From: Ditylenchus dipsaci
Taxonomy: Eukaryota; Nematoda; Chromadorea; Rhabditida; Anguinidae
NCBI GenBank assembly: GCA_004194705.1
Contig: SADC01000002.1
Coordinates: 1 to 64,000, forward strand
Reading direction: 5' to 3'
DNA length: 64,000 bases
The position numbers and the translations under genes were made by a program. Below, piece after piece: positions 30,474 through 53,752 of the stretch. A model generated the notes under the pieces. That model saw nothing but the letters and a program-made list of their open reading frames with translations. It had not been told where the DNA came from and ran no database searches. The stretch's first letter is position 1. Each line of letters begins with the position of its first letter.

Positions 30474-31233
30474 ACTTTGAAACGCCATGATGGTTTTTTC
30501 AAAGTACTAATCACTATAAGTTAAACGTGCATAAAAGTAGCCCATAAAAGTTGGATAATCAAAAATACATAAAACAATACAGATTCAAAAGTGGTCTAAA
30601 ACCATGATATCCATATCATGATTTTCCGACAACTTCGGGTAGCCCGTTCTCCGTAATTTGTCAAATGACCTGAAAACTTTGTGAAACTTTGAAAGCTTTC
30701 AGCACTTTGTTATATAACTTGGGGGTGCTCTACACGAATCTGCAAAAAAAATCTCTCAACGAGGTTTTTAAAAAAAGTCACTACTTGAGGTTCCCTGGTC
30801 AGCGTAGGCGATTTACTTGTGGAACTGCTTTTAAAATATAAGAGTCACTGTCAAATTTCAAATCACGCTCAAAAAAACACATTCAACTAGTGTTTTCCAG
30901 TTCTTTTGAAAATCAAATGTTTTTTGTCTTGAGCGGGATTTGAAACTTGACAGTGACTATTTTATTTTAAAAGCAGCTTTACAAGCAAATTGCCTACGCT
31001 GAGCACGAATCCAGTGTCAGAATTAAGAATTTGATAAAAAAACGAAGAGATTTGAAGAACGGGTAAACGACTTCACAAGCCGTTTACCCGTTGGAATTTC
31101 TCCTGTTTCCGATTTTTTCAGCTATTGTGTTCAGCGTTAAATACCACACAAAACGCATCGTTTAGTAGGCACGGCCTTTTCCGTGTTAAAAAAAGTTTTT
31201 AAGTCCCTGAAAATTGGAGATGGTGGATTTTAG
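30474..31233. other. Intergenic with palindromic MITE
   Basis: An inverted repeat spans about 30795-31015: GTCAGCGTAGGCGATTTACT pairs with the later GCAAATTGCCTACGCTGAGC, and GTCACTGTCAAATTTCAAATC pairs with its inverse near 30935. A related copy lies near 38340-38570. No gene. Confidence 0.5.
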
Positions 31234-31508
31234 GTCATAGGTAAATTTAGCGTAACAAATTCAGCGGAGACTAATTCAGCGGAGCAAATTCAGCGGAACT
31301 AATTCAGCGGAACTAATTCAGCGGAACAAATTCAGCGGAGAAAATTCAGCGGAGACTAATTCAGCGGAGCAAATTCAGCGGAAATATAAAAATGCTTTTC
31401 AAATTATTTTTGCTGCAGTGTTTTTTGTGCGGTGCGATAGTGGAACTTTTTTATCGGAAATTTTGTTGACTGTTTTTGTTATTCATTTCTTTTACTTGCA
31501 GGCAGAAA

Positions 31509-32602
31509 ATGGCAGAAATCAAGTCGAAAAAAGGCAAAGTGATGGCAGTGTGTGGCAACTATCCGATGAGGAAGGACTACGTCTCCGCAAATAAGCTCAC
31601 TCAATACTGGCGATGCTCAATGGAAGGATGCCATGCTCGAACTCAATCTGCATTTGGATCTCTGGTGCTAAAGGAAACAAGAGCTCATGATCTACGCGGA
31701 GGGAGTCCAGCGACAATCGAGGTAGTTTTTGATTTGATCTTTTTATTAAAACTTTTTGAGACTCGGACGCGGCTTACAAAGGTCAGGAAGGATGCAATGG
31801 AAAATTTGGCGGCCAGCTCTCAATCAATTTTGACGAACGCAAAGGCAGGGACATCGCAAGCAGTTATCGAATCACTTTCGGCTTACTTTAACATCAAGCG
31901 AATCGTGACCGAAAAACCGCCTTGAAGTGATTTCTCATCCACAGCTAATTGAAGCCTATGTGCGTATCCGGACAACTAAGGATAACGATTTCATCAATGT
32001 TTTTGCTCAGAGTGATGAAGGGTTCAAAGAGGTTAGATGTTTACACAAGTTAATTTAATCATCGTACAAAATGTATTCTAGGAGAAGCGCAGGGAAAAAC
32101 GCCGTCTCCGAGATCAGCTCAGAAGAGTCAAGAAAGCTGAAGAAAGAGTCAGGCAGCAGGCAAGTTATCAGTCGTCCTAGAATAAACAAAAAGTGTGGTA
32201 TATGATATAGTTCACATCGTGTCCTAATTGAATGAATTTTAGCCAAAAAAGCCTCCTGTCGAGAAGAAACCTCCACCGCCTCCCAAGCCAAGTTTACTCA
32301 AGATGAAATGCAGTGCCTGCGGCGAGCTTGGACACATGAAGACGAACAAGTATTGCAAGCTTTATGGTCAGAAAAACTCGGTTTGCTGGCTCAAAGGACA
32401 GTTGGTGATATTTGCCCGGTTGGTTTTGTGATTGTGAAATTGAACTATTTACGATAATTTTTAAATTCAGTCTATCCAAGAAGACGAGCCTGACTTGCAT
32501 ATGGAAGAACTGATTGCTTTTGAAAGAACTCGCCTAAATATCTCGAAGAAGTTGTACAAGCATGCTGAGCAAGAAAGGAACGAAAAGAAAGCGTTGCGGT
32601 AG
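31509..32602 (+). CDS. FLYWCH zinc finger - TAF1 zinc-knuckle fusion protein
   Basis: ATG at 31509 lies just after an acceptor (TTACTTGCAG). The N-terminal part holds a FLYWCH-type finger ([13 protein letters not shown], preceding Cys and following His), common in Mutator-like transposon proteins, followed by an ~50-residue helix-rich linker ending FNIKRIVTE. From about 31925 the sequence becomes the part of TFIID subunit TAF1 after its histone-acetyltransferase-like core: [20 protein letters not shown], a basic helix ([15 protein letters not shown], 32082-32159) and [19 protein letters not shown] (zinc knuckle, 32243-32380). The last exon (32471 on) ends at TAG 32600-32602. Introns are short, and one has a GC donor (32160). 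One extra A near 31915 shifts frame exactly at the junction. Bromodomains and the TAF1 N-terminus are absent. Confidence 0.75.
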
Positions 32603-32766
32603 GCTTTATTCGAGCTTTGTTAAACTGCTAACTATAAAGTCTCCACTTTTGCTGCTTGCACATTCCTCGCCAGTTTCTAGACAATGAAAAGAAGAAGAGA
32701 ATGGCTTCGAACGAATCGTTTTTGTTTAGTTGAAAACCGTTAAATTGTTCTTCTCGTTTATGCTCA

Positions 32767-32772
32767 AATAAA
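32767..32772 (+). promoter_or_regulatory. Polyadenylation signal AATAAA
   Basis: Lies 165 bases after the stop codon of the FLYWCH-TAF1 gene and still inside the transposon's right inverted end, so the captured gene is a self-contained transcription unit. Confidence 0.55.
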
Positions 32773-32998
32773 GATTATTGGTTGAGCAATATTTGTACGT
32801 TTGTGTGCTGTGTGACTGTCAGCTTTGTTTTAGTTCAGCTCTTTTTACCTACATAGCTCAGAGAACTAATAAAATCATGCTCCGCTGAATTAGTCCCCGC
32901 TGAATTTGTTCCGCTGAATTTGTTCCGCTGAATTAGTCTCCTCTGAATTAGTCTCCGCTGAATTTGTTCCGCTGAATTTACCTATGACCGGATTTTAG

Positions 32999-34458
32999 CC
33001 TGAATTTTGAGTGGACTTTGTGTTCAAGCCCTATTTTCAGCCACTTTTTGCTTTGTCGGATACATTTCTTGAACACTTGAGTTACTCAGAGGTGCTATCT
33101 ACTAAGAGGAAGCCAGGAGATGGGGGGGGCTACCCAGGAGGAGGGTAGCTAGACTTAATGTAACCAGGAGGAGGCATCCAGGAAGAGGATACCTAGGAGA
33201 AGGGTAGCTAGGAAGGGTTAACTAGGAGGAGGTTAGCCAGGAGAGGGCACCCATACGGAGGGTTGCCAGGAGGGAGTACACAGAAGGGTTATACCCAGCA
33301 GGAGGAAAGCCAAGAGGTGGTTGACCAGAAGGAGGGTAGCCAGGTGGGAATATGTGATCGATTAATATCTACACAATTTTAAAATAAGGCGCCTTTTGCC
33401 TCTAGTAAAATGTATTTCGATGTTGGTTTTCGTGTTGACACGGAAACAACATTTTATTTCCGTGTTCATTTTCGTGTTGGCACGGAAATGAAATTCATTT
33501 CCGTATTGGTTTCCGTGTTGATACGGAAACCGGAACTGAAACGTATCAGGTTTTGTGTTAGTGTTGACCTTAATTCTCGCCATTTTTTTAATTTTTTCTA
33601 CACGTGAATCACACGGACGCCTGAATTGACGCCTGATTCAGATAGACGACCGAATTCACGCCTGAATCAGATGGACACCTAAACTCACACCCGAATAAGG
33701 TGGACACCTGTATTCCCACCTGAATCGCATGAACACCTGAATTGAGTCAGGTGTGAATTCAGGCGTCCATCTGACTCAGGCGTTAATTTAGTGTGATTCA
33801 CGTGTAAAAAATAAAGAATGGCGAGATTGAAGTGTACACCAACACGAAAACCAAAATACGTTTCAGTTTTGGGTTCGGTTTCCGTGTCAACACAGAAATA
33901 CATATTATTTACGGAAATATTATTTGGGTAAACCAACACGGAAATGAATTTCGTTTCAGTGTAGCACGGAAACCTAAGCTATACGAATTCAAAACGGAAA
34001 TATCAACATAGACATAACTCTGCTGTGAATGCTCAAGAATCAAGTTCGGCTTGAGTTCAGAATCCCCCCACGGGGACTGATCAGGTGGAAGAGATAACTT
34101 CATATTCGTGTTTCTTGACCCGATTTCATGAGAAAGCCGCGCGTTTTTTTGGTTCTGAGAAAAAAAAAATTTCAACCATAGGGGGGGGGGGGTGATATCA
34201 TGGTTTTTAAGTCAAAATTTGAAAATTTAAATTGGCGCCTTTTGAATTTAAAAGGGATTAAGGGCTGTATAGGGAGGGGAAGGGAATAAAAGGGGCCACT
34301 AATCACACAGGGGCCACTAACAAGAAGATGTTGAACATAGTTCTGAATACTGGGGCCTACCGCATAAATAAACTCTGGTATGCATGCTTTTTCATGCATC
34401 CAGAGTCACTTTCGAGTGATTTGTGTCTAAGGTATGTGGGTGTGCGCATCTCAACTCC
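32999..34458. repeat. Low-complexity and inverted repeats
   Basis: A purine-rich stretch of imperfect CCAGGAGGAGGGTAG units spans 33105-33350. It is followed by an inverted repeat (about 33410-34010) built from CCGTGTTGACACGGAAA units, whose centre contains CCTGAATTCACACCTGA-type units (33610-33790). No gene seen. Confidence 0.55.
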
Positions 34459-53274: not shown

Positions 53275-53321
53275 TAAAATCACTGTCACATTCTAATTCT
53301 ACTAAAGACAATTAATAATTG

Positions 53322-53752
53322 AGGCTAAATTTCGGAACACCCACCCCAGTCAATTTCGGTATACCCACCCAGTCATTTTTTTGGAACGCCCACTCCATTT
53401 GATTTAGTAATACACCCCTAATGCTACCCCACAACTGAAAGCGTAGAGTGTTAGCTACACGATGATGCGAAAATTTCTCACATCAGTCCACTAAAATCTA
53501 TATGTTTTAATAAAAAAAGCCTAGAACCATTTCGAATATTTCATTTTCTTTTCGAAGCTATTTTTATTAAAATAAATTGATTTTAGTGGACTGAACGAGA
53601 AATTTTTACATCATCGTGTAGCTAACACTCTAAGCTTTCAGTTGTGGGGTAGAATTAGGGGTGTATTACTAAATTAAATGGAGTGGGCGTTCCAAAATTG
53701 ACTGGGTGGGTATACCGAATTGACTGGGGTGGGTGTTGCGAAACTGCTCCAT
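53322..53752. mobile_element. Foldback-type palindrome, CACCCACCCCAGTCAATTTC ends
   Basis: Arms of about 190 bp (53330-53515 with 53570-53750). The outer part consists of three GGAACACCCACCCCAGTCA-type tandem units. Target duplication not resolved. Confidence 0.7.

Follow-up and report, generated by a model that had tools for sequence, protein, structure and literature searches.

A FLYWCH-MULE foldback element of Ditylenchus dipsaci with a captured piece of TAF1, very probably a multicopy Pack-MULE

In the first 64,000 nucleotides of Ditylenchus dipsaci contig SADC01000002.1 (the window, meaning the whole stretch analysed), a segment of the TAF1 gene lies between the ends of a transposon that also carries a FLYWCH finger. 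Is this an intact chimeric gene, as an earlier note on the sequence had it, or host DNA carried along by the element? Very probably it is a non-autonomous, multicopy Pack-MULE, in which the TAF1 piece is mostly a passenger.

Structure of the element and its family

The window element, a DNA transposon, extends from 31233 to 32989, and its inverted ends are composites of tandem repeats. Its outer features are as follows.

31225–31232, no strand: left target-site duplication, GGATTTTA, 8 bp
31233–31383, + strand: left composite terminal inverted repeat, terminal GGTCATAGGTAAATT followed by about nine AATTCAGCGGA-type units
32714–32989, + strand: the element's own 3' tail, within which the right composite inverted repeat lies at about 32879–32989
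32990–32997, no strand: right target-site duplication, GGATTTTA

The outer arms (31233–31284 and 32938–32989) are 94% complementary, and the AATTCAGCGGA-type units are spaced at 14–15 bp, with the opposite end in inverted orientation. These inverted composite ends support the foldback-type transposon proposed in the earlier note, while two of its details need correction: the element starts at 31233 rather than 31234, and the target-site duplication is 8 bp and not 9 bp. The length is given by the family, in which 10 of the 12 copies with both ends located have a perfect 8-bp duplication (the exceptions are C465, with 7 bp shared out of register, and C55, with none); the ninth duplicated base at the window copy is taken as a chance match. 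No empty site of the window insertion was found among the best 40 of 2343 and the best 40 of 242 flank candidates. Both flanks are repetitive, and neither has a full-length match elsewhere among the candidates listed.

The neighbourhood holds further repeats. Just left of the element, at 30789–31012, are 89-nt inverted repeat arms (83% complementary) that belong to a dispersed repeat with many genomic copies. The right flank contains a degenerate GGAGG-rich minisatellite with a period of about 15 bp (33110–33350), followed at 33413–33961 by TTTCCGTGTTG-type units arranged as an inverted repeat on either side of CACGTGAATCACACGGACGCCTGAATT repeats, which together look like another foldback-type element.

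The genome searched comprises 226,978,389 bases in 1359 contigs. A scan for the terminal pattern that allowed up to two mismatches gave 40 places, of which 24 match exactly, 5 have one mismatch and 11 have two; the reversed pattern, scanned in the same way as a control, gave none. A related terminus is present at nine of the 11 two-mismatch places (for example C80:160455 and C600:41500), five of them with GGTTATAGGTAAATT(T/A)AGCC and four with close variants; to judge from these sequences, they probably represent a second family with similar ends. At the terminal matches on C762 and C14, the element interior is absent from the stretches examined.

With the FLYWCH half as query, at least 18 family loci were found among the best candidates scored, and they fall into two kinds. 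In eight loci (C2b, C84, C219, C465, C722, C757, C1177 and C1285) the sequence enters a transposase at about element position 688, and C206, which has a deletion across this position but retains the transposase tail, is a ninth locus of this type. The other nine (window, C467, C1267, C17, C95, C152, C1004, C55 and C267) contain TAF1 sequence, which begins at the same place where the eight enter the transposase. The search of the genome for other copies with and without TAF1, suggested in the earlier note, therefore gave nine of the former and nine with transposase sequence or its remnants. Five transposase-bearing copies were read in raw frame, and all have frame breaks, stops or deletions; an intact source of transposase was not found among them. 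The copy at C206:131800–136180 is interrupted by an apparent foldback-like element, with arms made of CGGCATCGAAACGGCC-type units in tandem. Database gene models of D. dipsaci map to several of the loci: P0037 to C467, P0038 to the window, P0039 to C17, P0040 to C1267 and P0051 to C84, with P0011 on C434 (see below). At the C1004 element (C1004:14363–15475), model P0050 starts with 33 aa identical to its FLYWCH exon, and the remaining ~280 aa are without a Pfam match; the model is either a prediction artefact or an element-host chimera.

The sister copies carry a transposase with a MULE (DDE) domain and a FLYWCH front. The MULE domain is recognized in the C2b transposase piece (PF10551, E 1.2e-14). 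The FLYWCH domain of P0041 scores 22.3, just under the Pfam cut-off of 23.6, and that of the window copy (PF04500, E 2.3e-5, 24.9 bits) lies over it, which bears out the transposon-type finger noted earlier at the front of the window gene. Outside D. dipsaci, the named protein closest to the transposase comes from an aphid (Uroleucon; 39% identity), and the family, placed by its nearest matches, fits the Mutator superfamily, Phantom/Tm1-like, as that group is described in the available text of PMC3169594 and PMC6446971. The range of target-site duplications given for this Mutator group in the available text of PMC6446971 is 8–11 bp, and the 8 bp seen here falls inside it.

Origin of the TAF1 segment

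The middle of the window element is made up of host sequence:

31917–32717, + strand: TAF1-derived segment, 94% identical to C434:53056–53858, in the place of the MULE catalytic domain of the sister copies
31918–32031, + strand: remnant of TAF1 exon A, by alignment to the parent
32032–32081, + strand: TAF1 intron between exons A and B, by alignment to the parent
32082–32159, + strand: remnant of TAF1 exon B, up to a derived GC donor (CAG/GCAAGT)
32243–32431, + strand: remnant of TAF1 exon C, with the zinc knuckle at 32300–32371; the frame runs to TGA at 32429–32431

The zinc knuckle that the earlier note placed inside the element is present at these positions (88% over 24 residues, the tail of the query being approximate), and the genome contains the TAF1 knuckle three times: in the window, on C467 and on C434. 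The last of these is the parental gene. Its exons next to the captured stretch match TAF1 among PDB sequences (E 9.7e-46), the stretch itself matches PF15288, and model P0011 spans the 3' part of the gene. C434 has none of the 40 terminal-pattern places, and C434:51565–55358 contains no terminus with one mismatch or fewer. The 94% match between window and parent covers 805 columns, introns included, with a divergence of 4.6% at exon sites and 6.1% at intron sites.

A second TAF1 gene in the genome bears directly on whether the window locus could be the host TAF1 gene itself, or a pseudogene, hit by a transposon insertion. The earlier note would have been refuted by the lack of any further TAF1 gene, and the gene on C434 shows that this is not the case. 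The exons and introns are indeed collinear with the gene, but the TAF1 sequence begins and ends at junctions internal to the element, the same 5' junction recurs in other copies, six of which lie at different target sites with perfect duplications, and a full TAF1 gene is found on C434. That the window holds the host locus is so improbable that it can practically be dismissed.

Since introns are retained in the copy, the earlier proposal of capture at the DNA level stands. The accompanying claim, that the introns including a GC-AG intron were carried along, holds for the TAF1 introns, which are present and spanned by the 94% alignment, but not for the GC-AG intron. At the donor site (32160) the parent reads CAAACAAG, C1267 reads CAGACAAG, and the window copy and C467 read CAGGCAAG; there is AC in the parent and in C1267, with GC in the window copy and C467 only, the remaining six TAF1 copies ending 5' of the site. 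Inheritance of the GC-AG intron from TAF1 is therefore rejected. Because the parent and C1267 lack GC, and the P0011 model continues past the site to a downstream GT donor, the GC donor is best read, on this sequence comparison, as a change that would have arisen after the capture.

All nine TAF1 copies have the 5' junction in common, with only small indels around it. A tree was built from the front part common to the copies (17 rows, with C55 omitted because its front is too deleted, and with C267, C1004, C722, C1177 and C1285 partial). In it, one branch separates the eight usable TAF1 copies from all the others, with support of 82/88 and presence in 84% of 200 bootstrap trees, and the window copy is sister to C467 (93/94). 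Given the common junction and the grouping on one branch, the simplest reading is a single capture event. The BLAST blocks at both ends of the window's TAF1 piece overlap by 4 bp, as microhomology might give, but at base level the bases around the 5' junction are altered or inserted in an A-rich run.

The 3' ends are of at least four kinds. Given as parent/native positions, they are 53858/2101 in the window copy and C467, 53265/1952 in C17, C95 and C152, and 53276/2049–2050 in C1004 and C55; in C1267 TAF1 stops near 53429, with a nested insertion within it and a dispersed repeat ahead of native 1934, and C267 is truncated. The nested insertion in C1267 is a short palindromic element with CATAGTGACCGCGCCGTCC ends, situated in TAF1 exon C and flanked on both sides by CTGTCGAG. 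A capture reaching C434:54500, suggested by C1267 alone, was considered and not accepted: C434:54312–54500 is a dispersed repeat, for which all 40 scored of 330 candidates gave matches. In six of the nine TAF1 copies (C17, C95, C152, C1004, C55 and C267) only about 205–215 bp of TAF1 are present.

This shortness has a bearing on a possible RNA-level role, in which small RNAs common to element and gene would shield the element from silencing or dampen TAF1. TAF1 is essential, and silencing such an element would also strike the essential gene; the sense sequence of the window element is close enough to TAF1, over the length aligned above, for this logic to apply. The short remnants in most of the copies imply that long homology is not being kept, and a role of this kind is very unlikely.

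The copies fit better with capture followed by transposition. Seven of the nine TAF1-bearing copies (window, C467, C1267, C17, C95, C152 and C1004) are each flanked by a perfect 8-bp duplication of their own, which means that the hybrid as such has transposed. Host DNA between the ends, a parent elsewhere and several insertions also justify the comparison with plant Pack-MULEs made in the earlier note. The catalytic part is absent from the TAF1 copies, and the better-preserved ones keep the FLYWCH exon, the 3' end and the inverted repeats. A FLYWCH-MULE foldback element has taken in host TAF1 DNA with its introns, at one junction that falls inside transposase exon 2, presumably through template switching in repair or replication. 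The transposase of autonomous relatives would then have moved the hybrid in trans via its ends, and the differing 3' ends presumably came from later internal deletion, for example by interrupted gap repair.

Reading frames and possible products

The coding features of the window copy, besides the TAF1 exons, are:

31509–31721, + strand: exon 1, FLYWCH, 71 aa, open; putative last zinc ligand His changed to Arg (AHDLR)
31722–31781, + strand: transposase intron 1, also open in the window copy; P0038 ends the intron 21 nt earlier
31782–31925, + strand: hybrid exon 2, of native transposase sequence up to about 31916 and of TAF1 after it; out of frame, TGA at 31923–31925
32178–32180, + strand: TAG in place of the parental CAG (parent position 53318), a stop if exon B continues toward the parental GT donor

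In the hybrid exon TAF1 is entered +1 out of frame, and the TGA at 31923 follows two codons beyond the junction, after VTEKPP. Across the nine TAF1 copies, the frame at the junction is continuous and open in two (C467 and C1267), shifted in five (window, C17, C1004, C55 and C267) and broken in two (C95 and C152) by a 14-nt insertion with a stop. Further along, the window TAF1 exons have single-base gaps in the knuckle exon, 3' of the knuckle, and in the next exon, and those of C467 have one two-base gap and several single-base gaps. A stop in the C467 knuckle exon was dropped from consideration, as it adjoins the two-base gap and depends on the alignment. The parent on C434 also runs into a stop in the last captured exon, close to where the captured part ends. 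The published D. dipsaci assembly (227,234,012 bp, 1394 scaffolds) was made with CANU from PacBio reads at 42x, with BUSCO complete 537/982 and no mention of short-read polishing (PMC6929663). Single-base indels are uncertain in a PacBio-only assembly, and some of the single-base frame breaks may be assembly errors.

The finger is also altered. FLYWCH is of C2H2 type according to the available text of PMC3169594, from which the last His of the finger is likely to be a zinc ligand. The FLYWCH region ends in HDLH in eight of nine transposase-bearing copies, the last His being Tyr in the other, and P0056, a diverged D. dipsaci protein of the same kind, has HNIH. In all seven readable TAF1-bearing copies this His is replaced by Arg or Cys; the copies being related, the loss may have been one event.

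The intact FLYWCH–TAF1 gene of the earlier note is consequently not found in the window copy, given the TGA at 31923, the TAG, the two single-base exon gaps, the loss of the ligand and the end of P0038 at the junction. Two gene models, P0037 and P0040, do join FLYWCH with TAF1 sequence, at C467 and C1267 respectively. A working hybrid protein is probably not produced; what the copies usually make, if they make anything, would be a FLYWCH-only protein of about 118–125 aa ending at the junction.

Two protein-level alternatives to a passenger can be considered. In the first, the FLYWCH-only product would repress the family as a shortened transposase, by binding to the ends or competing there, the TAF1 piece being incidental. 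The FLYWCH exon is open in five of the seven copies extracted (window, C1267, C17, C95 and C152, but not C467 and C1004), and truncated models exist at the window (P0038, 125 aa) and C17 (P0039, 123 aa). Against such a repressor are the loss of the putative ligand throughout the readable TAF1 copies, and codon-position counts that give no sign of stronger protein-level constraint in them; it is an unlikely explanation. When each change is counted once, these counts are alike in TAF1 and other copies (FLYWCH part, Fisher p = 0.70); on their own they are no proof of neutrality. A looser codon-position bias in the TAF1 copies, seen in pooled counts, was gone once each change was counted singly.

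In the second, skipping of exon 2 would join exon 1 to TAF1 exon B and then, across the GC-AG intron, to the knuckle exon, giving a FLYWCH–zinc-knuckle protein of 159 aa; TFIID or the transposase might be disturbed by it. Such a frame is open in the window copy (31509–31721, 32082–32159 and 32243–32431), with both domains above the Pfam cut-offs; exon 1 and exon B are in the same phase (0), P0040 uses the identical exon-1-to-exon-B join, and the donor CAG/GCAAGT is present in the window copy and C467 only. Neither the window copy nor C467 has a private change at about 91 coding sites of the knuckle, against an expectation of about three (Poisson P ~0.05, in a region chosen after the fact). On the other side, P0038 at the window locus keeps exon 2 and stops at the junction, the putative last ligand of the finger is Arg, TAF1 is present only in part, the FLYWCH exon is frame-shifted in C467, and the FLYWCH counts given above do not separate the two groups of copies. 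Exon skipping is accordingly judged quite improbable. It is marginally less probable again that the protein, made by exon skipping with the newly arisen GC-AG intron, is expressed from the window copy and acts in trans on the family or on TFIID. The dominant-negative effect on TFIID suggested in the earlier note finds no support beyond this possible frame. The TAF1 piece as a mostly passive passenger of a Pack-MULE remains the preferred reading.

Comparison with known systems

What is new here is that the Pack-MULE belongs to an animal and that its captured piece sits within the gene for the transposase. In the available text of Tan et al. 2021 (PMC8277862), a survey of 100 animal genomes identified no Pack-MULE. 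No report was found in the literature on TAF1 with transposons or transduplication. The D. dipsaci element is likewise unreported in the titles and abstract openings of papers on MULE gene capture in animals and nematodes, and in the accessible parts of the literature on Ditylenchus MULEs and transposable elements, where the string “captur” occurs 0 times in the available text of PMC11118728. An arthropod MULE paper (PMC13359780) and a Caenorhabditis paper (PMC10015627) treat capture in general terms in the text available.

A single assembly offers the donor gene, capture-free sister elements, a capture junction common to the copies, and 3' ends of four or more kinds, so that capture, spread and decay of a host gene fragment can be read in an animal. 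The case suggests that a host-gene chimera of this sort is mostly passenger, which bears on how often chimeras become genes.

The foldback MULE type is already known from another plant-parasitic nematode, as the Mutator/Foldback element Tm1 of Meloidogyne (Gross & Williamson 2011; the following is from the available text, PMC3169594). Tm1 likewise has composite inverted ends of 13–15 bp tandem repeats in variable number, and a FLYWCH and MULE transposase that Gross & Williamson assign to the Phantom subclass, with best outside matches to aphid proteins as for the D. dipsaci transposase. Its duplication is similar in length, at 8–10 bp and mostly 9 bp, compared with 8 bp in D. dipsaci, and its repeat unit and terminal motif are different; the string “captur” has 0 occurrences in the available main text. 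Plant Pack-MULEs and animal Pack-TIRs, as described in the accessible part of PMC8277862, share with the present element a host fragment between the ends, a parent elsewhere and distinct duplications, whereas the D. dipsaci capture differs from Pack-TIRs in sitting in the transposase gene with the FLYWCH exon kept. In Turmoil-1 of C. elegans, according to the text available (PMC2572040), a nematode DNA transposon has also captured pieces of host genes, one of them with an intron whose splice site has decayed, but this element belongs to the Harbinger superfamily, and its captured pieces lie in the inverted repeats instead of replacing the catalytic domain.
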